From Enchytraeus crypticus (Eukaryota > Annelida > Clitellata > Enchytraeida > Enchytraeidae), in NCBI GenBank assembly GCA_905160935.1, contig CAJHZI010000841.1:61001-125000 (forward strand): 64,000 nt of DNA, in the 5' to 3' direction. Shown in pieces: positions 24,673 to 58,700 of the stretch; within the stretch, counting starts at the first letter, position 1, and every line of letters starts with the position of its first letter. The notes beneath the pieces were generated by a model, which was not told the DNA's origin, made no database searches, and saw nothing but the letters and a program-made list of their open reading frames with translations. The position numbers and the translations under genes were made by a program.

Positions 24673-24936
24673 ATGGCCTCAGAGGACTACAAGCACCCCC
24701 TGCCGGCAGATGATTATCGGAGAGGGGCAGATGAGAGGGACTGGGAGGGGGCAGACCCCCCAGAGGTAGGGGAGGCAGGGGTGGGGATGGGTGAAATGGG
24801 TAGTCCTACCTCTCCCATGCTGTTAGAGAGCGGCGGTACACAAAATAAAAATAAGAAAACCCCGCCAACGACGAATTTGAGCAGCTGTAACATGTGCATC
24901 AGATATGTGCTTGTGATTGGGAACTGCCTGTTCTTT
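24673..24936 (+). CDS. Tetraspanin exon 1 (coding part)
   Basis: 88 codons, phase 0 at the end, donor GTAAGT. Encodes the acidic, Pro/Gly-rich cytosolic extension and the first half of TM1 ([14 protein letters not shown]). The transcribed exon probably begins at 24662 after the acceptor TTTTTAATTTTAG. Its last 13 bases and donor are tandemly repeated downstream. Confidence 0.88.
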
Positions 24937-26368
24937 GTAAGTGCATCATAAGTGCATCATTGTACACTACCTGTTCTTTGTAAGTGCATCATTGTACACT
25001 GCCTGTTCATTGTAAGTGCATCATTGTACAATGCTTGTTCTTTGTAAGTGCATCATTGTACAGTGCCTGTTCTTTGTGAGTGCATCATTGTACACTGTTA
25101 TTTTTAAGTGCATCATTGTACACTGTTCTTTGTAAGGGCATCATTGTACACTGTTCTTTGTAAGGGCATCATTACACTGTTTTTTCACTCTGCCCAGTGG
25201 CGGATCCAGGGGGCCCAGGGGGCCCGGGCTCCCCTCTTAGGCCCGACGAAAAAAAAGTTAAACAATATTTTCATTGTTTCTATGGCAATTTCTAGGTGTA
25301 AATATGATTTAAGGGCGTTAGGGAGGTTGGGGGGGGGGGGGGGTTGGGGGTAAGAGAGAGAACTCAACAGTCCGACTACCTGGAATTTTTAAAATATGAG
25401 TCCCACTAGGGACCCGTATAACGGAAGAGGGCCCGAAAAATGTTGACCGTTTCACTAGCTCTCAATTTTCACTTTAACCACTATATAAGAGTAACAAAGT
25501 TTGTAAGGCAAAAAAGTGAACTCTGTCCCGGAGCAGTGATGCAAACAGCCTCGGCTGGGAGGGGCTTAAGCCCCCCACACCTTCCGCCAAAATAAGGTCA
25601 CTTTTGCAATTGGTCCAGATACGCTGAATTTCTTCAGAGGTGAAAAAATAAATCTACTTTTTTCCTAAACAAATACGGGGTTTTAGGTATTTTAAGTGTT
25701 CCTCTCACTTTAGTACGGGTATGAGTGTGGGGGGGGGGGGGTAATTTACAGGGATACACTCGCTTTATGAGTCGAGCGCAGTATGCTGAAAAATTTTGAG
25801 TCCCCACTCCTCCACATAGCATATTTTCTGGTTCGTTACATGTCCTGAAGAAGGCGGGGCTTAAGCAAAAAATATGTACACTCTGCAAAAAAAATTTCGG
25901 GCCCCCCCTTAAAAAATTCCTGGATCCGCCCCTGACGCTGCCTGCTCTTTTTAAGTGCATTATTGTACACTGCCTGTTCTTTGTGAATACATTGTTGGAA
26001 ACTGCTATTTCTCTGTAAGCATAGGCCTACTTTGCCCTGTTGCGTTGTTTGTGTAGATTGAATGTATAATGTGCAATAGTTGTCGCATACATATAACCAT
26101 GCATTAGTTCCCTGGTTCGTATTGGTTTCTAGAGCATACGCTAGAGCATTAGTGAAGCCTAACAAATCACACTTGAGTTTATTTTTGTAAAGGTTGTTAA
26201 AATTCAACATTTTATCTACCATCAGCAACATCAAATATATGCAAATAAATGCAGAGGCGAAGTGTTAAAAAAGGACTTAGCTTAAGATTACGATCAGGTC
26301 CCAAGTGTTTTCTCTCTCTCTCTCTCTTAGTGCACTGCCTACCGGCAGGTCCATGGTATATATACATG

Positions 26369-26403
<35 letters not shown>

Positions 26404-26430
26404 GCCTATATAGGCCTATACATTTGAATA

Positions 26431-26472
<42 letters not shown>

Positions 26473-26485
26473 TCAAATGTATAGG

Positions 26486-26551
<66 letters not shown>

Positions 26552-27637
26552 ATATATACCATGGACATATACCATATACCATATTATATCTATATATACA
26601 CATTTATATATAATTTACGCAGTTAATGGGCTGTACAGTGATTGGACTGGGAATCAACCTGGTGGTGGACAAGGTGAACCTCATCACCCACGTGTTTGGG
26701 ATTCATCTTATCGCTCCAGCCTCCTACCTCATCCTCACTGCTGGCTGCATCGTCTTCGTTATCTCCTTCATCGGCTGCTTCGGAGCCCTGTTCGAGAGCA
26801 AGACCGTCCTCATACTGGTATGATAGGGCTAGTAAACAGCCTTGAGCTGGTCTTATTAGAGTAGGGGTAACGTCATGAAGTTTTAAATGACAGTTCCTGA
26901 AGTGATTTGAACCTTCGTGGGTTCGAATCCCAGCCGCGCAGATTTGAGAGTAAAATCTCGGACATTCACTTAACCTGGTTATACGGAAAATGGTCTAAAT
27001 TGTCTAACGGTTTAAATATGTGGTTTTAAAAAGTGATAGATATCAACATAGTTTATCATTTCACTCCAATGCGTGTTAACTTTTTATACAGTGGTCTTTC
27101 TTGCTTTGAATTTCGTCGTTCAATGCACCATAGATATTTGCTAATCGTCTTTGCTTTGGCTTTGGCTCCGTAGTGCTAAATGTTGACGTGGACTGGAGTA
27201 GTGCTTTAATAATGTTGTCTTTATTGTTATTGTTGTTGTCCGTATATTATATGTGTCCCTTAATAGAAGTTTACTGTATCTGAGGCAGACACAATAGTTA
27301 GAATTTGAAGAAACTAATTAGGTTTTGTAATACGCTATGCATTTGTGGTTAAATATGCCTAATTACTAGTTTATGCATGTTAGTGACGAATGAAATTAGT
27401 TCTGGATGATGAATATCAATGATGAATGAATGTAGTACTGGATGAAGAATGTAATCGATGAGTGAATTTATTAGTTCTGGATGATGAATGTTAGTGATGA
27501 ATGAATGTAGTGAGTGAGCAAGCTGGTAGTGAATATGGTCATGTTCATTGAACCTGTGTTTTAATAGAACGTTAGAGAGCTAGAGATAATGAGAGAGAGA
27601 GAGAGGGAGAGAGAGAGAGAGAAAGTAAGAGAGAAAG

Positions 27638-27669
<32 letters not shown>

Positions 27670-30600
27670 TAAGAGAAAGAGTGAGACCTCACGAACTCTT
27701 AGCAACTACAACCAGTCTTATTTCTATGTATACATGTACATGTATATTGATCGAAAGTCATGCTTTGACGTCGCTTTCTTCTCGTTTCTGCCGATACATT
27801 CCAGCGTTACTTGCCTTCCAAAAACTGAACCTCGATGGAACCGAGCACTCTCTTTCTCACTCTCACTCGCTCTCTATTAGTGTACTACCTATTGGCAGGT
27901 CCGTGGAATATAACTCCTCATAGGGGCATCATCTTCCCCTTTAATCTATGACGCAAAATGCCATTTAATGGGGTACCAACGGTTCTGGCTAAGTTTGATT
28001 TTCAGAACTTCTGGAGAATTGCTTGACGAAAACTACATCATCGCTGATATGGCGAAAACGCCCCTGACCCTTAACATATTTCTATCCTTTGCTGTTCTCT
28101 ACATATCAACATTTGAAATAGTATTCGGTTCATCCAGCATCCCCAGTCTCTGTCTTTATGTAACTTTCGTTCCTGCCATTCGTTCTTAAATTACCACTTT
28201 TAGTAAACATCCCCTCTCATAACAAGACCCATCCAGTTCTTCTTTCTATTCCGTATGATATTTACCAAATATCTATTTGTACAAACCCTATTTGCACGTC
28301 TTAATTGGTAATTTTGTCAGTCCATTTGATCTTCATCTTTCTCCATTGCCACATCTCCAACGCTTCCATATTCAGAACGTCTTTCTTTCTTAACGTCCAT
28401 GTTTCACAATCGTTCAGGAGCGTGGTTCATACTAAAATATTTGCAAACTTTATCATCGTGGATTTCTTCAGACTTGTAGATATAGTGATGTTAAATTAGG
28501 CTTTTGGTGCTTAAGTGACGGTCTTGATAGCTGAGATCTTTTAATGATGCAGTTATTTCAGAAACATCAAATATCTTCACTGCAAATATTATAATTTATT
28601 ATAATTTTAAATTATAAAGTTAGATGATTGCACTTTAGATGAAGATTGGCACAAGAATTATTGACGGTTTTCTGATTGTTTTCAGTATTCAACTGCTCTC
28701 GGTCTTGTTCTAATACTATCAACTCTTGGCTTCATCTTAGCTATCGTCTTCGAAACTAAGGTGTGTAATTAAACTGTACTGAGCCTATTGTTTAATTCTG
28801 TTTTTGTTATAATAATTGCCCGAGTTTTGTCGGGGTTGCAGAAGAATATATAGTATAGTGACGTCCCTGACATCATCCCTGGATGAGGAAACGGACGTTA
28901 AACATTTATTATTATCATTATTATTATTATAGGCCAATCGTGGACTGCACGACGTGCACGTACCATAAAAGGCGACCAAGTACTGAGATTCAAACCAAAA
29001 TTCAGATAGATCATTCGATTTATGAGCGCCTAGGCTCCAGAAATTGCTACAAATTTTTTAATCCCGATAGAAGTTAGACTCAGATTCAAGGGAAGATGAA
29101 GATGATGATGAGATTATTATAAAACTTCTAAGTGATTATTGATATTTAATTTAAAATTACTTTACAACCAAGCAATTTTCATTGTCTTAGTAGAAGTCGT
29201 AAGTGACATATAGGCCTATTGCATCGTTTGCATTCAATGTATTGTATTGCTTTGCAGTGAATTGTATTTTATTGGCTGGAATATCTGTTGCTTTTTATCT
29301 TATGACTTATAATAAAAAAATAAAGATTTGCAGGCTTATCTTCCACTCCACCGCAGCTAAAACTCTTCAATATTTCAACACTGAGAAAATTATGCAAATG
29401 CATTACAACAAAGGCTAAATAACATAGTAGCAACGTTAATCGATATTTGTATGATTATCTGGGCCTATGCTGAGGGGCGGATCAAGGAATTTTTTAAGGA
29501 GGGGGGCCCAATTTTATTTTTGAGAGTGTACATTTTTTTGCTTACGCCCCACCTTCTTCGGGACATGTGACACAACCAGACAAATTTCTGTGGGGGAGGG
29601 CTCAAAATTTGTTCACTACAACGTTCGGCTCATAGAGTGAGTGTATCCCCGTACCTTAGCCCCCCCCCGCTTATACCCGTACTAAAGTCAGGGGAAAACT
29701 GTTTTCCTCCTATGCATTGGTAATATGCATTGGTTCAAGTGAAAATTGAAAGCTAGTGAAACGGTCAACATTTTTCGCACCCCTTCCATTATACAGGGCT
29801 CCCAGTATATCCTAGAACAAATCGAGCTATTGGAACTGGGTCCCCCCCGGGCCCCCCTAACCACTGCCATTGCTAACATCTTTACACATTGAAATTTGCA
29901 TAGAAACCCTAACTGACCCTAAATGTCTAACCCTCCCCCCGGGCCCTCCCCCTAACCACTGTCATTACTAACATGTTTAAACATCGAAATTGCCATAGAA
30001 ACAATGAAAATATACCCTGTCTTACCCTCCCCCGGTCCCCCCTAACCACTGTCATTACTAACATATTTACACATCGAAATTGCAATAGAAACAATGAAAA
30101 TATACCCTGTCCTATCCTCCCCCCGGGCCCCCCATCAACAATTGTCATTACTAACATATTTAAACATCGAAATTGCCATAGAAATAATGAAAATATAGTT
30201 TACAATTTTTTATCATCGGACCTAAGGGGGGAGGGGCCGGGCCCCCTGGGCCTCCCTGGATCCGCCACTGCCTATGCTCAATCAATTGTTGGCCTCCAAG
30301 ATTTACTATGCTGTATAGCAGCAATATTGTGTTAATATTCTTACTGTTTATTTGTATCTACACGATAAGGAAGCGATGGGAGTAAGTTTATCCTAAGACA
30401 AATATCTTTCAGCAGGAAGACTGAATTAATGAATCTATGACTGATTGATTGCGCCTGTATTGATAGGTAAACGATCAGATAGTGAACTCTATGACAAATA
30501 CGCTACGGTACGAATACGGAGTTAATCTGGAGAACTCCTGGAATAGGGACGTCACGGACGCATGGAATGGGGCCCAGCATAAGGTCAGCATCATCCTGCT

Positions 30601-33600
30601 AATTCTGTTTAAATTGATAGATTTTTACCGATACCGTTGAGTAGTTAAATTGCTCAATAAGGCCTTGTTTTATATATTGTGAACATAAGGGAAGTGGTAA
30701 AGTTTAGTCACCTTATTTTAAATGGTCACCATATTGTAAATCTGACATTGATCTTATTGAATCTCTTCAAAAGTAAGCTTGTGTAGTGAATTTATTTTAT
30801 CCATATCTGTGGTTACCTTCACTTTTGTACTGTAATTCTATTAATTAAGCTTTTTATTATAATTTTCTACTTTTATGAACAACATTGTTGTTGTTGACTC
30901 ACAGTGGCACTGTTGTGGAGTACTTCAGGAGGGGTACAGTGCCTACAAATCATCCGAGTGGCAGAAGGCACAATCAGCGCCGGCAGGTATGTTGTAAGCC
31001 TCAAATAGTATTTTAATGATGCAGTAAATTGGAACAATTGGGCAAGGCTCATTCATGATGATGACGCTTATATTCACATTCAACTTTATCGGTTTCACTA
31101 AAAAATATAATTGCAATATAACACCGCCCGAAATAATTTGCTTAGTAGTTTGGATAAGTCGCTCACCTTAAACAGCGTTCACGATAAGACCCTCAGTATA
31201 ACTTTGATAGATGCCACCTGTAATGTCGGCCATGACTAGTATAAGGATAAAAGGATGTTTTGCGCTATGTTATCAGAAAAGAAAAATATTGACGATACTT
31301 GACAAAGTGTCTGATGAACATATAGCTATTGAAACTCTACTACAGGTCTCCTTTTTGTACAGTACAAGTATAACTTTTATATTTGATGTGTACAGACTTG
31401 TTGAAGCCATTGATACCATTGTCGTGTACAGTACCAGTACAATGTTTGTATCTGTTGGGTACAAAGTTGTTGAAACAATTGGTACCGATGTCGTGTTGTG
31501 CACAGTACCAGTATAATGTTTATATCTGTTGTGTACAGAGTTGTTGAAGCCATTAGTACCGCTGTCGCGTTGTGCACAGTACCAGTATATTGTTTGTATC
31601 TGATGTGTACAGAGTTGTTGAAGCCATTGGTACCGCTGTCGTGTTGTGTACGTGATCAGTACAACAGATACATAGACGAGCAGAAATGCCAGACATGGCC
31701 GATTGGACCTCCTACGGTAGCGAGCAATGAAAAGAACGAAGCCCTGTATTACACAGTTTGTACAGATCCCTCTATGGTTCTCTGAAATTGCAGATTGAAA
31801 GTATAATTATCTATTCAAAACCGGTTCTCAGGTTTTATCATAAGTACCCTAAGGATAGCAACGTAGGCTCAGTCACAAAGGCTGTAGCTGCATCATTATG
31901 TAACCATCTTTAGCGCGTGGAAACAGGTGACTTAGATTCAGTATTTTTGCCTGAGAGAGAGAGACAGACAGACAGACAGAAAGACAGACAGACAGATAGA
32001 TAGAAGGTAGCTATATAAAGCACGGTTAGTACATCGTTGGGTGACCACCTTGGAGGGCCGAGTGTTGACAGCTTTAACTGAAAAATTCTCTAGGTCCCCA
32101 GAGCACAGGTTCAACCTACAAACTCGGGATGTGCTCAGTCAAAATATCACATGAATATTGTCGGCAGAATAGAACCTAACAGTGGGTCCAAATTCCATTC
32201 AAAATAATCTCTGTCATCGTTTCAACAGCCACGATAGATAAACGATTGCGACATATGCAAAGAAACTGACACGATTTCTAGCCAGGAAAACGAAGTTAAC
32301 TTATTCTTTAGCTTGTCGTTTTTATTCATTAATTCAAAGAGTCTTGTATAATAATAATAATAACAACAATTAGAATGCTACAGTCATCAATGACAACATC
32401 GAGCACTATTGAGACAAAATCAAGCCGGCGAGCAAAAAAAGAAGGTCCAAAAACGGTGAAAATTCCAAAATCCAGAAATTCAGTCCAAAGAAAAGGGAGT
32501 TAAAGAAAAGGTGGTTTAGGCGCAGGTCGCTGCTCATGGACACTAGATGGAAGAGAGATGGAAAAGATAGGTCTTCAACTGCTTATGGAACTGCTCATTT
32601 TATTATTATTATTTTTTATTTTAAATATTTAAAGAATTAAAACTGGTCTGCTAAGACCAATCATTAATTTTGTCCTGACAGTCTAAGAGTATTTTTAACT
32701 AAAGATAATCCAATGATTACGTGTAGGTTGCAAAAGTAAATTTCAACTTCTTATGAAGTAGTTTTAAAGTATATTACTTATAGAAGGCTTCTTATCTAGT
32801 CTAGTGACTAAATTATTAAACTAGTTCGGAGGGCTTAGTCCTCTTCAGCCTGCGGAAGCGGCGTTGTTGATTCAGTAAAGTTCAACAAGTGTAAACAGTA
32901 ATGCGTTAGAATTTAATTTATGATTTTTCCTACTGAAAGTGATGAAATTTAGCAAAATTCCGAATGATATGGTGAAACTAGATATATACCATAATCGGGC
33001 AATCTAGTGAGACGAGAATAACACTATAACTCGATTAATTAACTACTAATTAGTAGAGCTATTTAACAAGCAACCTCGTTGTTTTTGTTTACCATATGGA
33101 ACTGCTCATAGGAAAGCAAAGGCTGATGTGATTCAAATGAAGATTTCCGAAGATTGGATGGAAGAGAATTCCATATCTGCGGTGCAGCATGCTGGAAAGA
33201 ACGATTAGATAACATAGAGCGTGAAGGTAAGCTAGGTCTCACAAGAGTAATTAACTTAGAAGACCGAGTAATAGCAGGCTGCATCACTTTAATCAAGTGA
33301 GACATACAAGTTTGTCTAGGGATGGTGATGGACTTTTACTTTAACGAAGCTGTTTTGTAAATGATACGCTCTTTAATCTTTAGCAGTGCAAAGACTTCAA
33401 AATAGGCGTAACATGTGAGTACTTGGAACTACAAAAAATGGCTCGCGCAAGAGAATTCTGAACAAACTGTAACCGATCGATCTCACAGCCAGGGAGATTT
33501 AAAAACAGGGAATTGCAGTAGTCCAACTTCGATTGCACAAGAGCAGCACCAATTGTAGCAGCTGTGTCACGTGACAAATATGGACGTATTCGACGAAGAT

Positions 33601-36600
33601 CACGGATATGGAAGAAACATGCTTGTGAAGTTTTAGTTATGTGTTCGTGGAAGGTTAGGTGTTTATCAAGTATAACACCGAGATTTCTCACAGAAGAAAC
33701 TGGTGATATTTTAATACCCGAAGATAACGAAAGAGTTTTCCCATTCAGCTTCAGAAGCTGTTGAGGTGTCCCGACCAACAAAAATTCAGTCTTAGATGGA
33801 TTAAGTGCCAAGAAATTAGCAGACATCCAAGGGGATATAGACTAAAACTTTGTTGCAGGAGGGTTTCAGCATTAGAATTGGAGTTAGGGGTGAAATAAGT
33901 GTATATTTGATTGTCATCAGCATATAGTTCATGATCAAGAGAATGAGAAGAGATGAGAGTGCTTAGGGGTGTTGTATAGAGGTTAAAGAGGATAGTACCA
34001 CGAACGTAACCTTGAGACACATCATACTTAAGTGAGAAGAGATCAGTGAGCTTAAGGGTGTTGTATATAGGTTGAAGAGGATAGGACCAAGAACGGAGCC
34101 TTGAGGTACACCATACTTTAAGTGGGAAGGCGAAGAGATGTACTGCATCACTTTCACACTAAAAGAACGATCCGTCAGATAGGAGGAAAACCAATCAAGA
34201 ACAATTCCACGAACACCAAACCAGGAAGAAAGACGTTCCACAAGAATATTGTGATCAATGGTATCAAAAGCGGCCGAAAGATCAAGCATACATAACCCAG
34301 TTAAGCGTTGTGTGCACATGGCATTAACAATAGAATTGCACACAGATAGAAGCACCGTTTCAGTTGAACGATGCTTAGTATAAGCAGCTTGGTGCTTATT
34401 AAATAGATCATTGTAAGAGAGATGAGCAGAAAGGCTCTGAAGAACAATTCTTTCAGTGAGCTTAGATATGTATGACAGATTAGATATAGGCCCGTAATTC
34501 GACAATAATTCCTTATCCAGTGTGGGCTTTTTAAGCAATGGCGTAATAACTGCACGCTTAAAAGCGCGAGGAAATTTGCCAGTAGAGAGAGAGAGGTTAA
34601 CAATCAATGTTAATACTAGAGCAAGTATGTGAATACACTTCTTTAAAAGAGAGGTTGGGATAGAATCCAAGTCACAATGTTTAGCTGGAGAGTCTAAAAC
34701 TAATTTAATAATCTCATCAATTGTAACTGGAGTGAAATTAGAAAGCTCATCTTTGGAATGATTCTCTACTGGAGTATGAGGAGTAGAGTTAGGAGCTGGA
34801 GTGATAGATTCTCTAAGATTGCTTATCTTATCTGTAAAGTATTTGGAAAATTGTTCAGGCAGTGACTCCACAGGAGTAGAAGGAAGAGAAGGAGAAATAG
34901 ATCTATGTAAAAGATCATTAACGGTTTTCCATAAACTCTTGACATTCACAGCCTTACTGACCAAAGAAGAGTAGTACTCTTTCTTAGCATTAGCAATAGC
35001 AGTACGATAAATCTTGTGTTGCAAATTAGAAACAGTTTTCCAAAAGTCTGAATGGGTATGACGCCACTTTCTTTCAGCTCTACAGCATGCAGCCTTTAGC
35101 TTTCTCAGACCAGAAGTATACCAAGGGTTAGATTTCTTAAGCTTCTTGGTAGTTAGAGGTGCATGCTTATCAAGTAGAGATGAAAGAGTAGTGTTATACT
35201 GTTTTACTAATTCATCAAGATTATTAGCAGGAGATCAAAGTCTGATTTAGAAGTAGTAAGGAAGAAGAGTAGGGTAGAGAACTCCGATAACTTGATCAAA
35301 GTCGAATTTTCAAGATCAGAACAAAAGAGATCAAGATTAACGTTATTTACACACCTAAATGAAACAGTAGGTGAATTTTTAATAGTATCTGGCTTAGCAT
35401 GATTTTAAGTGAATACAACGGGAAAATGGTCTGACGGCCAGTGAGATAAAATAGTAACACTTAAAGGATCAATAGCAGAGAGACTTGGTGTAATAACAGC
35501 ATCAAGTGTATGATTGTCAATATGAGTAGCAACATTCACATATTGAACAGCATTACAAGAGGACAGCAAAGTATTAAACTGCTGAGTTAAGGGATCAAGA
35601 GGATTATCAAGGTGAATGTTGAGGTCACCTGTAATCACAAAGTCTGATTTAGAAGTAGTGAGAAAGGAGAGTAGGGTAGAGAACTCCGATAAAAAGAGAG
35701 AGAAAGGTTTGGCATAGGGAGAAGAAGATGGTGGTCGATACACTGCAACAACATGCAGAGTACATGTGCTAAATTTACCAGTGACTGAAATTGCTTCAAA
35801 TGAAGAAAATTTATGACAGTCATTGCTAAGAAGGATAAAGGGCTTCCTTAGTAGGAGAGCAACTCCACCACCCTTAGCACCAGATATCCTAGAGTCACGA
35901 TTTGCAATAAACATATCATAACCTGGAGGAAGAATAGACATCAATTCAGAAGGAGTGGTTATAGAGGATAGCCAAGTTTCACTGATAGCAAAACAGTCAA
36001 ACTTGTGAGTCTCAGCCAAATCATGCAAAGCAATGATATGGTCTGAGTTAGAGAGAGATCGGATGTTAAGAGAGCAAAGAGAAATATTGCTTCGAAGAGA
36101 ATTAACCGGAATTCTCGATCGAAACATGCTTACAAAACTGGCAAATCAGTAATTGTAAACAATGCAGAAAGTGCAATATAAATTACGATATAGTTATACA
36201 CAAATTACATAAAAATACAAATATGCAATAATTCACTAACGATCAAAACGTAAACACTATAATTTTAACAATTTAAAAACTAAAAGCAATATAAAATAAC
36301 GTGTAACGGATCAACTATAACGGTAAAATAACGGTCAAAACTGCAAATTGATTTTTCAACAAAATAACTATGTAACAGATTAACAATATAACATAGAACT
36401 ATGAACTAAGTTAAAAGTACGCCAATGAACTTAATCAAGTCTAAAACTATTCACTAAAGGCGCTAAATTTCATTAAAATTCTATTTATTTATTATAAATC
36501 AATAAATAAACAGTCCTGTTAACACATGACGTCACGCAGAAGGAGTCTATTGTATTGCTTTAGGGCTGCTATGAAGCCGGTAAATTAGTTCTGCAGGAGG

Positions 36601-37289
36601 TGGCGGGATATCTGATAGGCATTGGTGTAGCTCTGGCCATACTTGTCGTAAGTATCTAAATCCAATTCTATCTCTAATTCAATCTTACCTTTAATCAAAT
36701 CATATCTGTAATGCAATATTACGTCTAATCCAATCTTACTTCTAACCTAATCATACATCTAATCAAATCTTATTTTTAGTCCAATCTTATCTCTGATCCA
36801 ATCTTATATCTAATCCAGTTATATCTCTAATCTAATCCTATCTCTAATCAAATCCTATCTATAATTCATTCCTATCTCTAATCAAATCTATATCTCTAAT
36901 CTACTCTCACCTCTAATCCGTTCTACCTGTAATCTAATCTTATATTTAATGTAATCATATCTCTATGTAATAAAATATAAACCAATGTGCATCCTATGTG
37001 CATTTAGAAAACTCGCATCTTTCAATCCTTTACTGATGGTCAAATTGATATTACATAATAGGAACAATTACATTATAATAATAGGCCTATTATTATGATT
37101 ATAGCTATAATTATAACTATTATAATTCTCTGTCTTTTTCTGTTGTTTCTGTCATTGCATCGTGCAATGTCTTATGGACTGTTGTCTGAAATAAACGAGT
37201 GATGATGACGATGATGATGATAACAAAATTATATCATAGTATATAAAATATTTATAATTAGTTTTTCATCACATTATAATTATATATAT

Positions 37290-37352
<63 letters not shown>

Positions 37353-37371
37353 TATATTTTAAATCACATTA

Positions 37372-37423
<52 letters not shown>

Positions 37424-38083: not shown

Positions 38084-38126
38084 ACAACCAGACTGAGTTC
38101 TCAAAACTTCTCGACTAGTTTGACTG

Positions 38127-38254
38127 GAGCCAGTGGCGATGTCGCTGAGATATCTGACTGCGGATCAGTATTTGCGTGGTTCAAATTCAGGGCTTACCCA
38201 TTACTGATATCGAGAGACGAAACTGACGTTAACATCGACTCTACTGCTTTATAA
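38127..38254 (+). repeat. SINE-1 copy just after the tetraspanin stop
   Basis: GGAGCCAGTGGCGATGTCGC head, diverged B box GGTTCAAATTC and GAAACTGACGTTAACATCGA tail. It probably lies in the 3' UTR. Confidence 0.85.
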
Positions 38255-45200: not shown

Positions 45201-45352
45201 TGACCCAATACTCAAAAGCTTTACAGAAATATCTTCATTCATCGAGTCCTCCTCATATTTGTCCAGAATCAACCCACTGACGGATGGTCCATCCATGCTT
45301 ACTTGGAGAATCTTTTCTCTAGGTAAATTGGCGATGCCTTCCTTAAATTTGG

Positions 45353-45406
<54 letters not shown>

Positions 45407-48400
45407 ATATATACTTATAATATATGACGAGAGAGCTAACTTTTCCACTCATCGTGATAGAGCCAATCAGAATTGACAACAGTTTTTTTACTAGCCATTA
45501 AAATTCTTTATCAGAATAATCTAAAAAATTACAAATCAAGAAAATGTTAATTATTATTAATCTAAGGTTATCGGGTTAGATTAGGGTCATTCATTTCAAG
45601 ATATTGCTAAAATTTCAGTCGAAAATTGCACGGCTATTGCAAAAAATGCAAGTCATGCTAGCTAGCAAATGATGATGAATATCATGTAACTAAAAAACCT
45701 AAAATATTGAAAATAAACATATGTTAACATTAATCCAGTTAAAAACTAACCAAAGGCTATTGCTTGATGTGCACAACTTGCCAACTTTGACAACTATTGC
45801 TTAATAATTCGAAATTTCATGTGACAAAACTTAGCACATGCTATTCATTTAAATTAATAATTAAGTCTATAAAAGATGTCCACACAGTGAGACAAAAACA
45901 AAACTTGTTTACATGTTTTGAAGTGTTGCCATTACTTTCTGATTACTTCAGAAAGTAATTTCCCATTACAAACACAAAGCCTAAAATAAAGGTTTAATGA
46001 CTGCTTCCTATGCAATTTTGCCAACAATTGGCGTCTTAGCGTTTAAACTTCTCATACTAAAAATGTTAAGAATGCCAAAATTATATTTTCCCTGACTTCC
46101 CCCTGACTTTTTCCACTTTCCCTGACTTTTCCTTGACCACTTTCGAATTCCCTGACTTTTCCAGGTTTTCCCTGTTTTCCAGAAGAGTGGTCACCCTGAA
46201 AATAGACAGAAGACGAGATAAGATAGCCTACCTGGTGCATCACCACCTTGCTGCCATCCACCGGTGTAGTCATACCCTGCTCACAAACATCAATTACATC
46301 ATATTACAATGAATTACAACTTTATGTAATTTACAACACATTACAACAACACTTGTGAGCTATAAATATTGAGCCGCTTAGGAAAATACTATGGTATCCA
46401 TTTTAATAATTTTTCTTCATTTCTTACATTTAGATTCTTAAGAACAAAGAAATTTTTGACAGGCGCCATTGGAGGTAGTGATTTTAATCTATACCTATGA
46501 CATTCATTACAACTCAATCACATAAATATCAATATGCAGTCTTTATTATCCTAATAAAAAGCAAAGAGTTACTTGACAATTTCAACATTCTATTTAAATA
46601 ATAGATAACTTACACGACAAAATATAGCTGAAGACTCATCTCGTGCAATAAATTATTGCAGATTACTGCCGCTAGCAAGCAAAATTTTAAAAAATCAACA
46701 GCAGAGTGTCAGTGAGAAACTGTCAACACTCTATTTAAGAGAGTTCATCGTTAGCATCAAGGGCACTTCATACAGACAATAACTACGATCATCTTATAGT
46801 AAACAAGTCTCAACGGATACCTTAAAATATTGTATAGAATCATAGTCGTTGGCAAATATACCACACAATCTCAAGTAAATGTTTATAATTTATTCAAGCA
46901 ATACACAAGTATCTATCACTCGATCTAGCGATATGTCAAGCAAACTCTACATCATGTGCACACATTCCTGCTCACATTCTGTATCAGCTCTCACATCAAC
47001 TGCTTGCTGCCATTTGCTTAATGCTTAACAGCAAGACCGGCAGTAAATACACATACTCACGATCAGTCATAACCAATTATGATGTCGCATTTAAACTGAA
47101 TAGAAAAATCACAAACATGCTCATGCACCAAGTATTGTAGGTAAACAATGATCGTACACACAGTAACACATTACACATAATTACTTACACATACAGTAAT
47201 ATATTACTCACAATTATGTGCACATACTGTAACAATTACACATAATTACATGCACATACAGTAACACATCACACACAGTTACGTGCACATACAGTAACAC
47301 ATCACACACAGTCACGTGCACATACAGTAACACTTCACACACAATTATGTGCACATACAGTAACACATCACTAACAATTACATGCACATACAGTAACACA
47401 TCACACACAATTACATTCACATACAGTAACAGATCACACACAGTTACATTCACATACACTAACAGATCACACACAGTTACATTCACATGCTGATGAGAGA
47501 TAGGAGCACGCACAGTTACGAGCACACTAGAGATAGGAGCACACACAGCTACATGCACACCAGAGATAGGAACACACACCTCCTCCATATGGAGCTGCAG
47601 CAGGAGCTGCAGCAGCAGGAGCGGGCTGTCCATAGGCTGGTTGTCCACTCTGATCATATCCATATCCTGGGTAACCATATCCAGGATAGCCTCCAGGTGC
47701 TCCGTATCCACCCGGCTGACCCCCTGCCGCCGGCTGTCCATAGTAATCATAGCCGGGGTAAGCCACTGGAGCGCCAGGGTATGAACCGTTGTAGTCATAA
47801 CCTCCTGCCGGTGGTCCATAGGGATTGGACATGGCTGGAGCACCTACAATACATTCACACATAGAACAGGTGACTCATAGGGATTGGACATCGCTAGAGC
47901 ACCTACAAATACATTCACACATAGAACAGGTGATTCATAGGGATTGGACATTGCTGGAGCACCTACAAATACATTCACACATAGAACAGGTGAGCCATAG
48001 CGGGTTGGGCAAAAATAAACTCTGAGTCTAAAATACTTCTAGAACTATAAATAAATGTTCGAATATACTGTATGCAGAATAACACCAATCACACATAAAA
48101 GTCAATGCTACAGGGTACAATTTTAAATGCAATACATTAAAATGCCAAAAAATGATGTTTTGAAATTATAAATCTATATTCTAGACCTAGTTACAATTAC
48201 TTAATTAGCCAATTTCTACCAACTGAACTTCAACGTGACATTGCTTAATATGCATTAGTTTTTCTAATTTTCAGTTGAAACAAGAATATAGCTACACTAT
48301 TCCATATACCTGCCACCTGTTGAAAGACCAGATGATTAGAAATGAGACAAAAAAGAGTGCACACTACAAACCCCTCCCCCTGCCGGCTCCTCCACCTCTT

Positions 48401-51400
48401 CCACCCCTACCACCTCCATTCAGTTGATCCTTGGACACCACCTTCCTTATATCAACCTACACATATCAGGCAATTTAATATTATTAACGGCTCATTTTAT
48501 TTTCTAATGAAAGTCACCTTTTAGCTTCCTTAATGTACACGCCATTTGATTTTCACCTTACTTATATAAACTTACACATATTTTTATTTAATTATTAGTT
48601 ACAGTCTCATATTACCTTCCTTATATCAACCTTAATTTAACACCACAATTATTTTATCATAGTTCCTATAATAACACGCACATATGTTTGACCTTGCAGA
48701 AATATCAAGCTTACCATTTTGTCTCCAAAGGGAATTTTCTCGTTGGCACAGATCTCCTGGACCGAAGACTCTGATTCAAATGTAACAAAGCCAAATGCTC
48801 GTCTCTGGTTCTTTACTTTGTCAAATGGAAGCTCCACCTGCTCCACCTAAAACAAGAAAAACCACAAACATTATATATCAATATTATATATCGATCAAAA
48901 TTTATATTAATACCAAAAATAATGTGAATAATGTGAATGTAATAGCTTAATAGTTAACTAAAACTTTAAACTTACTGTACTATGTAAATGCGTTTCAAAT
49001 ATCATATTAAACTTTATGAATCGTACTGAACTAAACAAACCAGTGCGCCACTGGCCTGGATTACACAGATATTTCCATTAGCAGGAAATTTTAAATGCAA
49101 ACATCTAGTCGGTCACAACCTAAGTCCTTACAACTAATGCTGTCTTACTGATATTAAGACGGCTTAGCCTAAAGTACACACACACATACAGCAGTAATTT
49201 TAGAACTCTTACCTTTCCATACTGACTGAAATGATTCATGACGTCTTGCTCTGTGAGACTAGGGTCAAGGCCCCCCACAAATATTTTCCTACCAGCCCCG
49301 CCCGTCGTACCACCCGGGACCACCCTCTTGGGGTCGATCTGTTTACCATGTAACACATGATTTCTGTCTGCTACCACCTACACAAAAAACATCAATTACG
49401 AATTGAATCAAATGTAACTTATTTCGAAAGGTAATATCAAATGAAACTTAACTTAGTTACAAATGTAACTTGTTTGGAATACAAATAAATTCCTTCAACA
49501 TTTCAGAACTTAACAGTTGTGTATAGAAAAAGCTTAAAACATAAATTTTTTTTTTTTTTTTGTCAACAATTAGCATTTGAAGTATTCCAAGTAATTTATC
49601 AAGTATTTTTTACTGAGTAAATTTTGTACAAGCTTAAATTCTTTTGCAAAAAAAATTAATTTCAAATCATTTAAATAAAACAATCCTTAGCTCTTTAAAA
49701 CCCCTATAGTAGCATAAAGAAGAGGGAAGAGAGAGAAGAGTGGAGGCATTATATACCATGGACCTGCCAGTAGTCAGTGTACTAAGAGAGAGAGAGAGAG
49801 AGAGTAGAATAAAATGATAGTGCTAGCCACTTAAGACACATATGCACAAAGCTTTGCTGACCCTATCGACTGTAGATTCATCAGCAAATAGAACGAAACC
49901 AAAACCACGGGACCGTCCCGTATTAAGGTCTGTCTTAAGATTAACTTCCAATACTCCGCCAAATCTCTCAAAGTATCGCTGTAAATCATCTGCAAATAGC
50001 AATAAGTTTGTCACTTCTTTGTTACTTCAATAATAAATATCGTAATTTTAAATCTAGGCTAAAGCATATTCATGAACGCACGTTCTATGCATTATGTGCA
50101 TTTTAAGTTTTGTGAAATTCACTGTATAAACAGATCTAAATTAAACTTAATTATCAACGTTAGTTTTGATTAAATCAAACCTTAACACAGACTTAGATAG
50201 TGAATTAGTCCACGGTGTCAGATACATACCTCCAGTGGTTTCCCAGCTTAATCCTCCAACAAATATTTTCCTATGCACAAAAACAGTGAAGTAGGATTAG
50301 CAAATCATGAATGCGTGCATTAGATGTATTAGTCAGAATGTGCTAACCGCCAAGAGACAGTTTTCAATTTTGCTGCAAGGACAAACGGCGCTCCATTTAC
50401 AGAGTAAAATATTAAACCCTAAAAAAGCAGCAAGCTGATTTTCATCACACTCCAATAATCGTGTTTAAGATACAGAAGGTCGGCTGAAAATGAATAATTT
50501 AGCACTCATTAAATTCAAGAAATATGCAGAAATGTTTAGCAAAACTACAATGACAAAGTTAGAAAGCCTGAGATGCACCTGTATCCAATTCTTAAATGCA
50601 TATTTCATTCATAATTAACAATATGACAAAAAGACTATTTTTGCAAAGTCTTGTGCAAAGACTTTTCATCTAATTGAAAGGTTGCTAGCACCCACCCAAT
50701 CAGTTAATAAGTGACTTATCATTGACGGCAGTGTTAAAAGACTATAATTAAAACCATACCAGTTGCAATCGATGCGCCATCAGAGGCAACGATTAATTAT
50801 AACCATGGAGAAGGAAGAAATAAAAAAAAGTACAAAAACAGAAATTAAACAAGGAAACTCTGAAACATATGCGGTATGTCATGTGTGTAACTATACAAAA
50901 CAAAAAATTGCTGTTATTCAGTTGCCACTAGAGAACTACAAAGTAATACAAATTTTTATATTTGACAGTTACAAAATAAAAGAAATTTACAATATAAAAT
51001 ATTTAAAAATAAAAATAATCTAAAATAAAAATATATAAAAATATAAAATGTTAATGCAATAATACTGATACAATTTATTTATTGCATTATTTGGCAAATG
51101 TCACACCACATTATCAAAAGAATATTTATTAAGCAAATGAGCAGCAAATGTTATAACAGTACTGACATAATATTGTAATATGACTCGCAATTAACACGAT
51201 ATTACACAAATGTAAGGATTCCGAATCACCTGCCAAATCTGTCTATACATAGCAGATTATATTAAATCCTACCAAACAATCTAGCACAGCCCTTTCCAAT
51301 TTTTATGCATCTCTTGGCATCACTGGCTATAAACTGTGCATTAAGTATTAGAAAGGCACTGGTTCAATATTTAATATCTTCCTGTTTAATATCAGTAAAC

Positions 51401-51784: not shown

Positions 51785-52555
51785 CTTAGTACCTGTAGTA
51801 TCAGCCGCTTCGCCTCTATATGACCGGCCGTTGATCGGCTAATAGAATGTATATCTATGATAATAGAACGAGTTAACAATTAGGCAGCAAGGATATAAAC
51901 AAAACACACGCTACTGCCGCTACCAAACAATAACATCTACCATACTACATCCGGTCCCAACACCACAGCAGCACTGCCACATACAAATTAATACAAAATT
52001 GCAACAGCAGCAACAACAACCACAAAATTAGTTGCCGTCGTCAAAGACAGCATCTGGTATTACTGGTTCAACTCTAAAACGATGAGAAATATCATATAAT
52101 ACAAAATACTTTTTAATGTTTTAAAAATAGTCCAGTGATATCATGCTTAAAATCATGATAAGTAAATACTTATCATGCCTTTGTCATGGCCAATGCCTTC
52201 TTTGATTTCGACATATTTTCACAATTGTACAGTTGCTTCTAAGATTTCCTTTCTTTCTGGTCATCACATTTTCTTGTTAGTTTCTGTTTTTTCTGTTATA
52301 TGGACATTGAACCTGTGTACGTGTGCAATAAAATGAGTTAATTAAGTATAATATATAGAGATAGAACAATTAGAGAGGCATTAATATTGCCAACGACATC
52401 ACAGAGCACAACGGCATTCAAGACACACCGACCAGCAGAAGAAATAGAGTTTAAACAATCTGAACAAATACATGTACACGTAGATCATCTGATAAGCCAG
52501 TCTATTTAAATAAACACTGATAAGATTACATCAACACTAATAAATATATTACTAT
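51785..52555. other. 5' flank of the hnRNP gene
   Basis: Contains the 5' UTR and probably the promoter, but no TATA-like or other site can be assigned with confidence. Confidence 0.35.
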
Positions 52556-52561
52556 TATTAT

Positions 52562-52795
52562 GTTAGAATGCCGTAATAGTGTAGAGATAAGGTCATGAAG
52601 TTTTAAATGACAGATCCTAAGGTGAATTGAACCCTCGTAGGTTCGAATCCCAGCCGCGCTGATCTGAGAGTAAAATCTCAGACATTCACTGGACTGGCTA
52701 TACGGAAAATTGTCTAAATTGCCTAACGGTTTAAACATGCGGAATTAAAAGTGATAGAAATAAACATAGTTGGTCATTTCACTATAATGCGTGAT
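52562..52795 (+). repeat. SINE-2 copy
   Basis: Head diverged (GCCGTAATAGTGTAGAGATA), B box GGTTCGAATCC, tail GGTCATTTCACTATAATGCG. Confidence 0.88.
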
Positions 52796-53107
52796 TACTT
52801 TTATTGTTTTATTTGAGATTCAAACAAGAGTATCAATACATAACGCCAAATATATAAAGTACACGGCCTATAACGCCGTGTCTAAAATTATTTCAATGTG
52901 TAGGCCTATGCTATGGATTAGTCAGAGAAATAATTATATTGGCCTTTATAGTCGAACCCACAGAACTTCAAATGCAGTACCAATTAATTTTAATGAAATA
53001 CTTTTGCAAGGTTATCGTTTAGAGTTTAACACCAATTAAACCTTTAAACATAAACAGTATGTAGTCTACATATGTAATTGGTTTCTGATGTACAGGCTAA
53101 CGTACGT

Positions 53108-53155
53108 ACAGTAACGTGCCACCTGGCAGTACGTACGTAACGTACTGCCAGGTGG
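53108..53155. repeat. 17-bp-arm palindrome
   Basis: GCCACCTGGCAGTACGT and ACGTACTGCCAGGTGGC are separated by a few bases rich in ACGT. Confidence 0.9.
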
Positions 53156-53156
53156 C

Positions 53157-53500
53157 AGCTTCAAGGTACATATTCATACTCAAAGTCTGCTTTCTCGCTC
53201 CATGAGAGCACTCCATAGATCAACACAACAAGTTAATCCCTTCACAAAGTCTGTGCCTTATCCATACCTTATATAGCCTATAGCTTGGAAAAAGTATTGC
53301 TTCTGAGGTGGTTTCCCGTTGCCTTCCTCAGTTAGATGCATTAATTATCATATGATCCTGGAGGAAACTATTTCATGGTGAGGTAGGTCCCCTCTTGCCA
53401 TCCTCAGCTCCTGCCTTAGTCGCCTTTTAAGTACACGAAGCAGATTGTTTGCGGTTGCCCTATTCTGCAGTGGTCCAACCACACCTGAGCACAACACGGG
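53157..53500 (+). repeat. Dispersed repeat, longer relative of 2465-2635
   Basis: Shares AAAGTCTGCTTTCTCGCTCC and CACTCCATAGATCAAC with that copy and continues with GAGGTGGTTTCCCGTTGCCT. Class unknown. Confidence 0.6.

Positions 53501-53502
<2 letters not shown>

Positions 53503-53582
<80 letters not shown>
53503..53582. repeat. (TA)n then (CA)n microsatellite
   Basis: TA repeats pass directly into CA repeats at the left end of the next element. Confidence 0.95.
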
Positions 53583-53583
<1 letters not shown>

Positions 53584-54338
53584 GACTGGGGCAAAAAAGA
53601 TTCCCTAGCGAAATCTCAATAACTTTAAGAAAACTCAAAATTTCTCTACGAAATTTGCGGAGCGTCTAGGAGAGGAATTTCTGCGTATATCCTGAAAATT
53701 TGATGAAAATCTATTGAGCAGGAAAAATATTACAGCGTTTCTACGAAAAAATTGCAAAATCAGTTTTAACAAGGCTTTTTTTGCCAAAAGTCTTAATAAC
53801 TTGGACAAAACTCAAAATAGTTTTACAAAATTTTCAGAGCCTCCAGAGGAGGAATTTCTACACTTATCGTGCAAATTTGGTGAAAATATATTCAGAAGTA
53901 ACAAAAATACAGCGTTTCTTCTAAAAAATGTTAAAATCAATTTTAACAAGGCTTTTTTAAACAAAAGTACAGGACATTTTCTTCAAAATTTAGGAATAAT
54001 TTTAACATAAGAACGAATTTTAAGCATCATTTACTGGAGTAGCTAACAAGGTAGTGTAGGCTTAAACTCCACCACTTAAGTAAACGGCCCTTTTCAGGCT
54101 CGTTATTTTCTTTAAAAGGAACGACTGACATTTTGAAAAGCCTTGTTAAAATTGATTTTAGCACTTTTCTCGTAGAAATGCTGTAATTTCGTAACTAATG
54201 AAAATAGTTTCATCAAATTTGCAGGATATACGCAGAAATTCCTCCCCTAGAAGCTCCAAAAATTTCGTAGAGATATTTTGAGTTTTCTTAAAGTTATTGA
54301 GATTTCGCTAGGGGATTATTTTTTTTGCCCAGTCTGTA
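53582..54338. mobile_element. Non-autonomous DNA element with long inverted termini
   Basis: The left end CAGACTGGGGCAAAAAAGAT and about 200 further bases are mirrored at the right end (ATTTTTTTTGCCCAGTCTG). The interior has three copies of a block ending AATTTTAACAAGGCTTTTTT. No transposase. TA sequence adjoins the right end, but a clean target duplication cannot be shown. Confidence 0.8.
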
Positions 54339-54386
54339 TATATATATATATATGTACAGTATATATAATAATATAATTGCATCTGG

Positions 54387-54465
<79 letters not shown>
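54330..54465. repeat. (TA)n microsatellite
   Basis: TA tracts separated by a 35-base unique stretch (TAATTGCATCTGGCTGA). Confidence 0.95.
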
Positions 54466-54466
<1 letters not shown>

Positions 54467-55129
54467 TTGTGTGTGCGTGTATTGTAACATTAGAAAAATA
54501 AAATTAACTAGGCTTACTTAAACTAGCAAGTTAAAATCTTAAAGCAGTATGAATTGTTTTTGAGGTACAATGAAAAAAATTATTTCATATTATTATTTAT
54601 AAAAATATATTTTTGAAGGTTCTGAAATGAAATGAATGACTTTTAAATTATTCTAATACATTTCTTAGTTTATTATTAGCATCTCCATGAAGATTTTAAA
54701 GCGCTGCATGTTTTCCCACAAAGGCTTAAGGCTAATGTTAGAAGCCTAAAAGAGAGTTTATGCGCTAATTCGTTTCATGTCTTGCCAAGGCACTAAGTGC
54801 ATCAAATTCAAGACGTGCAGTTCATTAGCCACCCGTGGGGGTAAAGAAGATCTTAAAAATTATATCAAGCACTGCATCTGGCTGATACGAAAACAAATGC
54901 ATATTATAAAAAATTGTTTTTGTTCAGTCAAATAAAATACAGACTACGCACAAGGAAGTTAGTTACACTATAATCCATAATCCATCATGCCAGAACCATA
55001 CACTATAATCCTTAAATACATATATGTACATGTTTAAGCTATTGAAACCCTCGTGTCGAAATAGCGTGCAATTAAAATATTCCTGTAGAAGATAGATGTC
55101 AAAAAATTTCAAGTTACTGCTTCTAACGG

Positions 55130-55335
55130 CAGGGAGTAAAGAGGCATCATCGAGCTAAGCCTATACTCAGTGGTTAAATTAAGTGAAAATTGAGAGATTG
55201 GGCAACGGTCAGAATTTTTTGGGCCCCCTAGTATCTAATATGGGCCCCTAGCAAGGGAATGCACCTCAGAAAAAGATCAAAGCTAGGGGAACTGAGTCTT
55301 CCCCCACTTTATCCACTGCTTAAACTTCTAACTCA
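55130..55335 (-). repeat. Remnant of the hAT-type MITE family
   Basis: AAATTGAGAGATTGGGCAAC GGTCA and GGGCCCCCTAGTATCTAATA resemble the interior of 25195-25934. Termini are not found. Confidence 0.4.
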
Positions 55336-55378
55336 CTATTGCATGAATAGAAAAGGTCTCATTTCGCTTAAGCGTTCA

Positions 55379-55384
55379 TTTATT
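55379..55384 (-). promoter_or_regulatory. Possible polyadenylation signal of the nucleolin-like gene
   Basis: AATAAA on the minus strand about 215 bases after the stop codon. Other signals further on cannot be excluded. Confidence 0.3.
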
Positions 55385-55597
55385 CACGAAATACTCTTCT
55401 CATCTCTGCGCAACTACTTCTTACAATATATGCTTAAGTATCAGTCTTAACAGGCTCTAACAGTTACGAGATACATGATCCAATTAATTAAATAAAATGA
55501 ATTCTATTCATTATCAGTCATCATCATAATCTGCATAAACAGCAGGACGCAGTCATTACAATGCTGAATTATGGTCCTATTAATTTACATTATGTAG

Positions 55598-55731
55598 TTA
55601 ATCATCATCATCATCATCATCATCTTCGTCATCATCATCGTCCTCGTCGCCATCCTCATCATCATCATCTTCATCCTCATCCGACTCGTCAGCACGGCGG
55701 CGCTTCTGAACTTGAACTTTTCTTGGCCGAC
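55598..55731 (-). CDS. Nucleolin-like exon 7, acidic C-terminus
   Basis: 134 bases with [23 protein letters not shown] followed by an almost pure Asp/Glu tail. The last eight codons are GAT repeats, a site prone to length change. Acceptor TGTTACAG. Confidence 0.88.
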
Positions 55732-58700
55732 CTGTAACATGGCAGATATAAAACAACTTTTAATATTTCCTGTTAAGTGTCTATCAAATGTTTAACCATT
55801 TATCAATAAAGATGTCAATAAGCTATTGGAGGTTATAGATTCAAACTCAAGCCAGATCATCTCAGACACTATTATCCCCAGTCCAAGATTTGTCAAATTC
55901 CAAGTGGTAAGTCAGATGGTGGGTTTTAGCTGAAAAGCGGATTGATCTCATCAATGGGGGGGGGGGGGGGGGGGATCAGTTAAATAATTTGGGAGATCAA
56001 AGGGGTCGAAATATAGCAATGTTTCATAAGTAACAATTTCAGAAGCACAGTTTTACATATAAAATGAGAAATAACTCATAAAATGTATCATTTATGTAGT
56101 CTGTGATTAACAGCAGTCAACTAATACACGTTCGGACTAGACAATATATTCAGTAACATTCTCGTGCAACTCATGTAGCCTGTAGGTTCTACATTTGATA
56201 GAATTGCGTCTCTCTCGGAGGTCAATCATATCCTATATCAGTTTCCTGGGAAAAGTTGTCAATAACTCAGTATAGATACCCACCCAAATCTCGATGATAT
56301 TCACAAAATATTTAACAATTTGGTATTTCATATTTCTGATTCATATTTCTTTCCCATTTCTCGAAAGCTTTGAACATTCGAGCGTCCAAGGTTGACTGGA
56401 ATAATTTTAGGCTTTGATGTAGAAGTGTTCGAAAGGATTCTACGTCAGAAAGGGCATTCGGTTGGTGAGGGTTTAGGCTCCAGAAATTTCTACAGAATAA
56501 AAACATCTCGACACCAGTTAAACTGGGCTTCAAGGGAAGATGATGATGATGAATGTAGAAATACTTCTATTATATTACTAAAGAGGCAGGCTTCTACCAT
56601 ATATCAGTAATTACAAGACAGATAGGGACAGAAGACAGATAGGGACAGAAGACAGATAGGGACAGAAGACAGATAGGGACAGAAGACATATAGGGACAGA
56701 AGACAGATACGGACAGAAGAGAGATACGGACAGAAGAGAGATACGGACAGAAGACAGATATGGACAGAAGACAGATACGGACAGAAGACAGATACGAACA
56801 AAAGACAGATAAGGACAGAAGACAGACCTCTCTTAGGCATGGGATACTTTCTCTTCAGCTCTTCAACAGCTCTCTGACTCTCAGGCGTCGTCTTCTTGCC
56901 ATACATCACAACCAACGTTCTCGAGTGATACACGTAGTCCTGCATTGAGTCGTGTGCCGCCTTACACGTCGTCTCATCAGCATAGTGTATGAATGCATAC
57001 CTGTAGACATGCAGTACAGTGTAGTGTATGAATGCATACCTGTAGACATACAGTACAGTACAGTGTATGAATGCATACCTGTAGACATACAGTACATTAC
57101 AGTGTATGAATGCATACCTGTAGACATACAGTAGAGTACAGTGTGTGAATGCATACATGTAGACATACAGTACAGCGTAGTGTATGAATGCATACCTGTA
57201 GACATACAGTACAGTGTAGTATATGAATGCATACCTGTAGACATGCAGTACAGTACAACGGCTTATTATGGACCGAAGATGTTACAAATAGTAATTAATA
57301 ATTATTTCAGTAAGTATGGATGTTAATGTGCGTTTATGGGTGGTTGCCAGTTAACTTCAATAAAATAATCAAAAATACATTTCCTTCCTCATTTCCTTCC
57401 AAAAATGTATATAGAGAATTAACTATCATCAGGTAAAATTAATTCACTTCTATTTTAGGCGAGCTACATAGATAATAAAAACGTCTAATGCACGTGGCAG
57501 AAAGGTCTCCATATTTACCCAAGAATTGAAACTGCACACCCAAATTGTCTGTTCACAAAGAATGATTACTGAATTGCTATTAAAGCATCTGCACGATCAG
57601 ATGAAGATAGGATTACATAGTTCATAAATTACATACAACTCATCCCTTATAACTGAAGGACTTAACCCAATGAACCCTCCATTAGACCGTACATGGAGAT
57701 AATTCTGACAGCATAAAACAATCATTTCCTACCCTATCGGCCTGTTTCCATCCTGCGCATTAAGAGGAAGGGTGACATCAGATGCAGTGGGGAACATTTC
57801 CTTCAGCTGTTCCATCGAGATCTCTTTGCCAAAGCCAGTCACGTACAGCTTAAGCAGATCACTCGCTAGGTTCACAGCAGGGGGGGCGTAAGTGCGGGCT
57901 GATTTGCCTCCTATAAAGTCTGCCACAATGTCGACCCCGTTCACCTGTCGACCTTTTAGCTCCTTCAGTGTTTTATCTGCCAGCTCACCGTTAGCAAAGT
58001 CGAGAATGGCATATCTACAATGTTATACAATACAGACAACACTAACGTGCTCTAGATAGGAACGAGAAATAAGGGCTTTGGGATTAAAGAGTGTTGTACA
58101 GCTATAATCATCTTGAAAATGTGTCATACAAATTATAAATTCTTGATGTAGAGAATTTGGCTACTGAAGGACTTTTAGAGATAAAGTAAAAAGTTTGCGC
58201 TAGAGAGATAATGGCTTCGAGTCAAAAGCTATATTGTTGGTAGACCATATTGATACATTAATCATCAATAAAATATATTTATTATTCAGGCAACTCTCAG
58301 CAAATAAATGTTGAAACGTTTACGCTACAGAGGAAGCTGCACATCAGGAAACGTGAGAAATACTTCTAAAATATCGTATTTAAAGAGAAAATGACTAAAC
58401 ATTTTCACAGTGCACAGCAATTTTTATACCAAAAAATAATGTGTACATTTATATATATCTCAATATAATTACGTTACAAAAGCATGTACTGACTTCGCAA
58501 CTCGTTGAATCAAAAAACAATTTATTGAATGCATCATTGAATAAATAAATTAATCAACAGGTCAGTCAATCAATCACTCAATGAATAATTCCTCTTAGGA
58601 TGTGATGGATCAGTGATATCTGATTGGACCACTCAATCTAATAGTAACCAATCAGATTACTCTGTTGATCCAGTGACACAATCTCGCACAGATATTTCCA

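Follow-up and report, generated by a model that had tools for sequence, protein, structure and literature searches.

Tandem arrays built from a gene's own splice sites pose the question of what process places them there and why the gene tolerates them. The question is raised by a stretch of 64,000 nucleotides from the annelid Enchytraeus crypticus (assembly GCA_905160935.1, contig CAJHZI010000841.1, positions 61,001 to 125,000), referred to as the window and numbered from its first letter, in which minisatellites adjoin exon edges of a tetraspanin gene, an hnRNP gene and a nucleolin-like gene. A first-pass annotation of the window knew of no named description of such arrays; this was mistaken, as tandem duplications of exon/intron boundaries in lancelet genes are called 'mirages' in the available text of two papers (PMC3087553, PMC3902484). 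The window arrays that carry exon bases are probably annelid mirages, that is, local tandem duplications that cluster where introns end (3') and are tolerated because the exon-proximal acceptor is the one used.

Gene models were built from the sequence. The tetraspanin gene (+ strand) gave a spliced protein of 330 amino acids with a frame open across the modelled junctions, and the nucleolin-like gene (- strand) an open spliced protein of 307 amino acids with RNA recognition motifs (RRMs) and an acidic C-terminus. The hnRNP gene (- strand), whose 5' and 3' ends lie outside the model, gave an open spliced protein of 286 amino acids in which two RRMs are joined by a tail rich in glycine and tyrosine; we take it to be A/B- or D-like. 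Pfam matches were Tetraspanin (2.8e-31) in the first gene and RRM_1 (4e-32 and 6.1e-14) in the other two, and the solved structures aligning with the window tetraspanin include CD53, Tspan15 and Tspan7. The protein models of the window genes run on from the exon-proximal copy of the junction.

All seven arrays listed in the first-pass annotation were recovered with Tandem Repeats Finder (TRF), and four of them copy a splice site together with exon bases, as had been claimed. A junction was accepted as copied when at least 20 of 26 bases matched. Tetraspanin exon 1 (24673..24936, +) ends in CTGTTCTTT followed by GTAAGT and joins exon 2 in phase 0, leaving the frame open. The array of 28-32 bp units at 24924..25173 (+) copies its last bases and the GTAAGT donor and is a 5' mirage; four copies of the junction lie at +43, +75, +107 and +139, all with GT intact, and a second cluster related to this repeat is found in the same intron at 25935-26019. 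The remaining three are 3' mirages. Alignment and TRF placed four 74-bp units at 31359..31648 (+), containing the acceptor of tetraspanin exon 6 (31613..31776, +) and about 36 exon bases; this number of exon bases follows from the position of the acceptor at 31612, more upstream than at first sight, after which the exon begins with AGTTGTTGAAGCC. Exon 6 was delimited by frame search and the open spliced frame, its donor being uncertain, and from its start, read on in phase from exon 5, encodes the VPLSCC motif. Three copies of its acceptor were found, two with AG intact.

On the minus strand, the acceptor of the hnRNP exon at 47580..47843 (exon 7 of the first-pass annotation; supported by the spliced frame and Pfam) is copied in a 60-bp array at 47810..48008 (TRF and alignment), whose units contain TGTAG followed by GTGCTCCAGCCATGTCCAATCCCTATG with one or two changes and so carry the acceptor with 27-34 exon bases. 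Both copies retain AG. The same gene holds two degraded acceptor copies absent from the first-pass annotation (48556..48640, -; 23/26 and 21/26 matches, AG in one), in which the exon begins at 48571 and at 48630; they derive from the acceptor of the exon at 48372-48456 and are a further old mirage. Exon 6 of the nucleolin-like gene (56828..57000, -; spliced frame and Pfam) encodes the RRM RNP1 motif YAFIHY, and seven 39-bp units found by TRF at 56978..57255 (-) contain TCTACAG followed by GTATGCATTCATACACT. Six acceptor copies were counted here, five with intact AG. The reading frame of the exon stays open through these units, at 13 residues each.

The other three sites, described in the first-pass annotation as starting at or near a donor, do so at distances of 0 to 5 bp and without exon bases, so that exon-carrying, boundary-spanning units are confined to four of the seven arrays. 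All were delimited by TRF. A 17-bp array (36653..36965, +) begins 5 bp past the donor of tetraspanin exon 7 (36597..36647, +; the TM4 exon, placed by the open spliced frame) and copies no exon bases. Two 33-bp arrays (47496-47579 and 47156-47488, -) begin at the donor of the hnRNP exon at 47580-47843, and a 17-bp array (56615..56826, -) at the second intron base after nucleolin-like exon 6; these contain intronic bases only.

Proximity of arrays to exon edges was assessed over the 40 splice edges of 22 modelled coding exons (24 exons in the first-pass annotation), with the same arrays placed at random in 2000 trials and allowed at most 40 bases over exons. For the 19 arrays with a TRF score of at least 100, six of the 40 edges lay within 10 bp of an array and seven within 12 bp; the random mean was 0.82, and 0/2000 placements had six or more edges within 10 bp. 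With 33 arrays (score at least 60) the random mean was 1.29 and P = 0.004. In this run five tetraspanin coordinates were 1-3 bases off and the uncertain exon 6 donor was counted in. Arrays are thus nearer to exon edges than shuffled positions in the window, although this test is weak by itself because the window was selected for its pattern.

A sample outside the window was drawn from the 524 Mb genome (802 contigs), from families picked before their DNA was seen: chaperonins (PF00118), myosin heads and RRM exons. Five of the 57 chaperonin rows had long uninterrupted frames and were left out together with nine others, giving 43 exons with 42 acceptors (one ambiguous dropped) and 42 donors (one last exon dropped). 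Myosins contributed 12 of 81 exons, taken where the profile ends fell inside the domain, and RRM genes 25 of 150 exons within fetched loci, with one edge each (nine acceptors, 16 donors). Including the window, the sample comprises 83 acceptors and 89 donors from few families. Edges rest on profile matches, splice consensus and phase-consistent donor/acceptor pairs. In chaperonins the automatic choice was overruled manually at seven edges, partly by means of human CCT sequences, and two edges were dropped; at C368:1150187, where two AGs lie 7 bases apart, the repeat itself swayed the decision. For myosin and RRM exons the edges were hand-picked among ranked candidates. Up to 900 bp around each junction (about 350 bp for myosins) was searched with its 26-mer for a second copy matching at 20 or more bases, low-complexity probes being uncounted and the tetraspanin exon 6 donor excluded. 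A block-shuffled control of this copy test gave 0/172.

Copied junctions recur beyond the window in genes unrelated to one another, and they fall mainly on one side of the intron: outside the window 15 of 63 acceptors were copied locally vs 2 of 70 donors (Fisher P = 0.0004). The counts for acceptors and donors were 13/42 and 1/42 in chaperonins, 2/12 and 1/12 in myosins, and 4/20 and 1/19 in the window; in the RRM genes the copy test found none (0/9 and 0/16). Altogether 19 of the 83 acceptors, across 11 genes, are copied. TRF arrays crossing junctions outside the window gave the same direction (10/63 acceptors vs 2/70 donors, P = 0.013). The trait therefore belongs to intron 3' ends and not to exon borders generally, so that the earlier suggestion of duplication favoured at exon-intron borders finds no support in that general form. 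Arrays that merely start at a donor are in excess in the window (3/19 donors), but outside it they occur at 2/70 donors vs 18/1111 intron control positions, no excess (P = 0.33), and they were set aside as a class.

Local copies are unevenly distributed along the gene. In chaperonins they were found for 9/352 probes in exon interiors (acceptors vs exon interior, P = 9e-9), and for intron probes at 60-500 bp from the exon the upstream intron exceeded the downstream one (105/624 vs 52/591, P = 4e-5). The copied fraction was 0.06-0.11 at -300 to -250 from the acceptor, 0.13-0.25 at -60 to 0, 0.19 at +10 and 0 at +70; at donors it was 0.04, and zero deeper into the exon. The acceptor is therefore crossed about as if it were absent.

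This gradient bears on the explanation that the introns are simply rich in repeats, with arrays placed uniformly, filtered only by coding disruption and crossing acceptors incidentally. Local copies at 16.8% of the chaperonin upstream intron probes speak for it, as does the lack of a significant acceptor excess when all outside acceptors are pooled (P = 0.17); uniform placement gives no account of the rise toward the 3' end or of the scarcity of donor copies, and we consider it unlikely.

The copies themselves were examined for signs of use. Arrays crossing acceptors have TRF periods of 30-109 bp and roughly 2 to 9 units, and are 128 to 402 bp long; the 46 acceptor copies carry 8-79 exon bases each (median 21.5). 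AG is intact in 42 of the 46, its two bases being conserved at 0.98 and 0.91 and the others at 0.78-1.0. The spacing of the nearest copy is blind to frame (6, 7 and 6 cases for 0, 1 and 2 modulo 3; n = 19). Were the nearest upstream acceptor used, the frame would shift in 13 of 19 cases, a stop would be added in five, and an open in-frame piece would be added in one, the nucleolin-like array. The first-pass annotation had offered selection keeping several splice sites as its second explanation, by which upstream acceptors would serve as alternatives or reserves, adding protein segments or strengthening weak acceptors. The intact AGs, the single in-frame case and an excess of synonymous differences, described below, are in its favour; yet the even spacing speaks against in-frame selection, splicing to the nearest upstream acceptor would disrupt the protein in 18 of 19 cases, and AG is kept no better than its neighbours. 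The idea of weak acceptors was likewise rejected, since acceptors with copies are not poorer in pyrimidines than those without (P = 0.17). Nearest copies differ from the junction at 41/532 positions in the intron part (7.7%) and 48/619 in the exon part (7.8%). Frame-blind spacing, broken proteins, the level of AG retention and equal decay together agree with locally duplicated copies under no constraint and argue against their upkeep for alternative splicing; we regard selection for several splice sites as improbable.

Several results weigh against reading the arrays as tolerated duplications concentrated at acceptors. The acceptor excess over the adjacent upstream intron is modest (P = 0.03 in chaperonins), and is not significant in the pooled comparison of all outside acceptors with chaperonin introns given above; the intron baseline contains the mirages themselves, and neighbouring-exon probes overlap. 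The rate is mostly driven by chaperonins, given the counts for RRM and myosin acceptors. A constrained exon also predicts that the exon part should diverge less than the intron part, and the equal divergence is awkward for it. Where exon and nearest copy differ by a single change in a codon, 23 of 39 such codons are synonymous (23 to 16), an excess over that expected of neutral copies beside a constrained exon at P = 0.008 without transition bias and at P = 0.05 to 0.075 once transitions are weighted by a factor of 3 to 4; over all copies the figure is 47 of 89, and the meaning of this synonymous excess is uncertain. The exon may have been converted by its copies or the reverse, or the copies may see some use.

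Unit sequences had been called unrelated in the first-pass annotation, against one repeat spreading among the genes. Two of the seven arrays, the tetraspanin 74-bp and the hnRNP 60-bp array, were searched genome-wide with a DNA search that skips simple repeats, and each matched only itself, so a single spreading repeat looks unlikely. For these two the search thus gave no sign of a dispersed repeat or introner-like element, whose unit would be present at many loci. When the arrays were compared with the fetched loci, matches of 73-81% appeared for two donor-side arrays only (to loci L013 and L009), besides the second cluster of the tetraspanin exon 1 repeat in its own intron. Collapsed or expanded repeats in the assembly are hardly credible as the source: the arrays are known from one assembly, but its contigs of at least 4.75 Mb suggest long reads, the acceptor-crossing arrays measure 128 to 402 bp, nearest copies differ by about 8%, and copies occur at 19 acceptors in 11 genes.

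Rogers 1989, Zhuo 2007 and Gao and Lynch 2009 reportedly described the creation of introns from tandem or internal gene duplications, and the RNA-dependent RNA polymerase (RdRp) gene of potato is said to be a case. The annelid arrays share with such introns the tandem duplication of a segment with splice signals; unlike them, they lie where an intron is already present, and most exons with a copied acceptor start without the GT of the AG-GT proto-splice site. By the Rogers model the arrays would be remnants of recently born introns. GT does start the exon at 5 of the 19 mirage acceptors, but this is not clearly commoner than at other acceptors (12/64), and the other 14 lack the GT that the model requires. 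We therefore hold intron gain to be very improbable here, although gain based on mirages has been proposed for amphioxus globin genes in the available text of PMC3087553.

The duplication at intron 3' ends may be pictured as follows. A segment that begins in the intron and ends a little way into the exon would be duplicated in tandem, the duplication passing over the acceptor unhindered and reaching about 50 exon bases further. The final copy, next to the exon, would after each event still have its acceptor and exon intact, and the upstream copies would turn intronic and then gain, lose and diverge like any minisatellite. They would persist because splicing normally takes the exon-proximal acceptor, a use that we infer from the conserved protein. 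The cause would be mutational, presumably slippage or unequal exchange, with a spliceosome that would ignore the upstream copies. A broader proposal is held tentatively, and we lean somewhat against it: throughout the genome, intron 3' ends might be hotspots where some property of the 3' splice site, whether DNA sequence, co-transcriptional splicing or R-loops, provokes tandem duplications across the acceptor but not across the donor, leaving about one in four acceptors with decoys that the spliceosome has to pass over, as a form of gene-structure-directed mutation that would be independent in lancelets and a protostome.

Other features were recorded in the same introns and genes. Stretches that include sequence resembling CAGTGGCGGATCC occur around 25197, between the two clusters of the tetraspanin 32-bp repeat, and at 29843-30275, where they enclose a 90-bp tandem array; by appearance they belong to a single family of small transposons. 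Long open frames at 33966-36145 (-), in the intron between tetraspanin exons 6 and 7, look by eye like a non-LTR (long terminal repeat) retrotransposon with endonuclease and reverse transcriptase. In 49 gene regions of the fetched loci and the window genes (176 kb), (TTGA)n tracts of at least 12 nt are sense in 95 cases vs antisense in 5, for example in the chaperonin introns of C345; by gene, 17 are mostly sense and three mostly antisense, tracts within one array not being independent. Outside the window TTGATTG lies within 60 nt upstream of 14/63 acceptors vs within 60 nt after 0/70 donors. The branch-point consensus yUnAy is matched by TTGAT, and the repeats could be tandem branch points. 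As a seed of mirages (TTGA)n was rejected, TTGATTG lying within 120 nt at 4/15 mirage vs 11/48 other acceptors (no association). No literature on sense-biased TTGA tracts was recognised among the matches listed.

The best COX1 match of the assembly lies on C802 (15,205 bp) and contains 12 in-frame TGA codons. Judged by the usual COX1 sequence, AGA/AGG occupy serine-type positions, with ATA where methionine and AAA where lysine is typical, which we take to indicate code table 5, and the sequence is presumably annelid-like. The cox1 gene is followed by tRNA-Asn(GTT) and a putative COX2 frame, all on one strand; annelids usually have cox1, trnN and cox2 arranged in this way. A lancelet origin of the genome, considered in view of the mirages, was rejected on this gene order and on the COX1 sequence, which make an annelid probable.

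The amphioxus system was reportedly first described by Canestro et al. 2002. In the available text of two later papers, mirages are given for Adh and the globin genes BflGb6 and BflGb9 (PMC3087553) and for PGBD5 and troponin C (PMC3902484), with units of 10-72 bp (Adh3), 60 and 108 bp (PGBD5) and 150-160 bp (globins), and their length is reported to vary between haplotypes and to be somatically unstable while the mRNA is normal (PMC3087553, PMC3902484). As far as these texts go, the arrays in E. crypticus resemble them in having tandem units of minisatellite type that straddle an exon/intron boundary, are specific to the gene and may lie at either boundary, and in that many but not all units retain AG/GT (here AG in 42/46 acceptor copies). 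They differ in the annelid host, in the 11 sampled genes and in the measured acceptor bias (15/63 vs 2/70). The kind of array is therefore known, and the lineage is new. Among annelids, the available text on earthworm metallothionein (PMC12783039) likewise reports minisatellites, in intron 1, and exon 4 duplications missing from the transcripts; unlike here, those repeats are not described in it as copies of splice junctions. The same pattern was not recognised in other animals from titles and abstract starts among the matches listed of openly licensed PMC papers, and within that literature its occurrence in an annelid, its frequency and the acceptor bias appear to be new.

Mirages had been reported, in the texts available, from a few lancelet genes; here 11 genes carry them, at 19 of the 83 acceptors in the sample. 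For annotation, gene finders can mistake upstream copies for exon starts. Two questions are opened for the biology of the worm: what lets the spliceosome pick one acceptor out of several that are nearly identical, and what makes duplication differ between the 5' and the 3' end of the intron. If the sample is fair, the E. crypticus genome would hold very many natural tandem 3' splice sites with upstream decoys.

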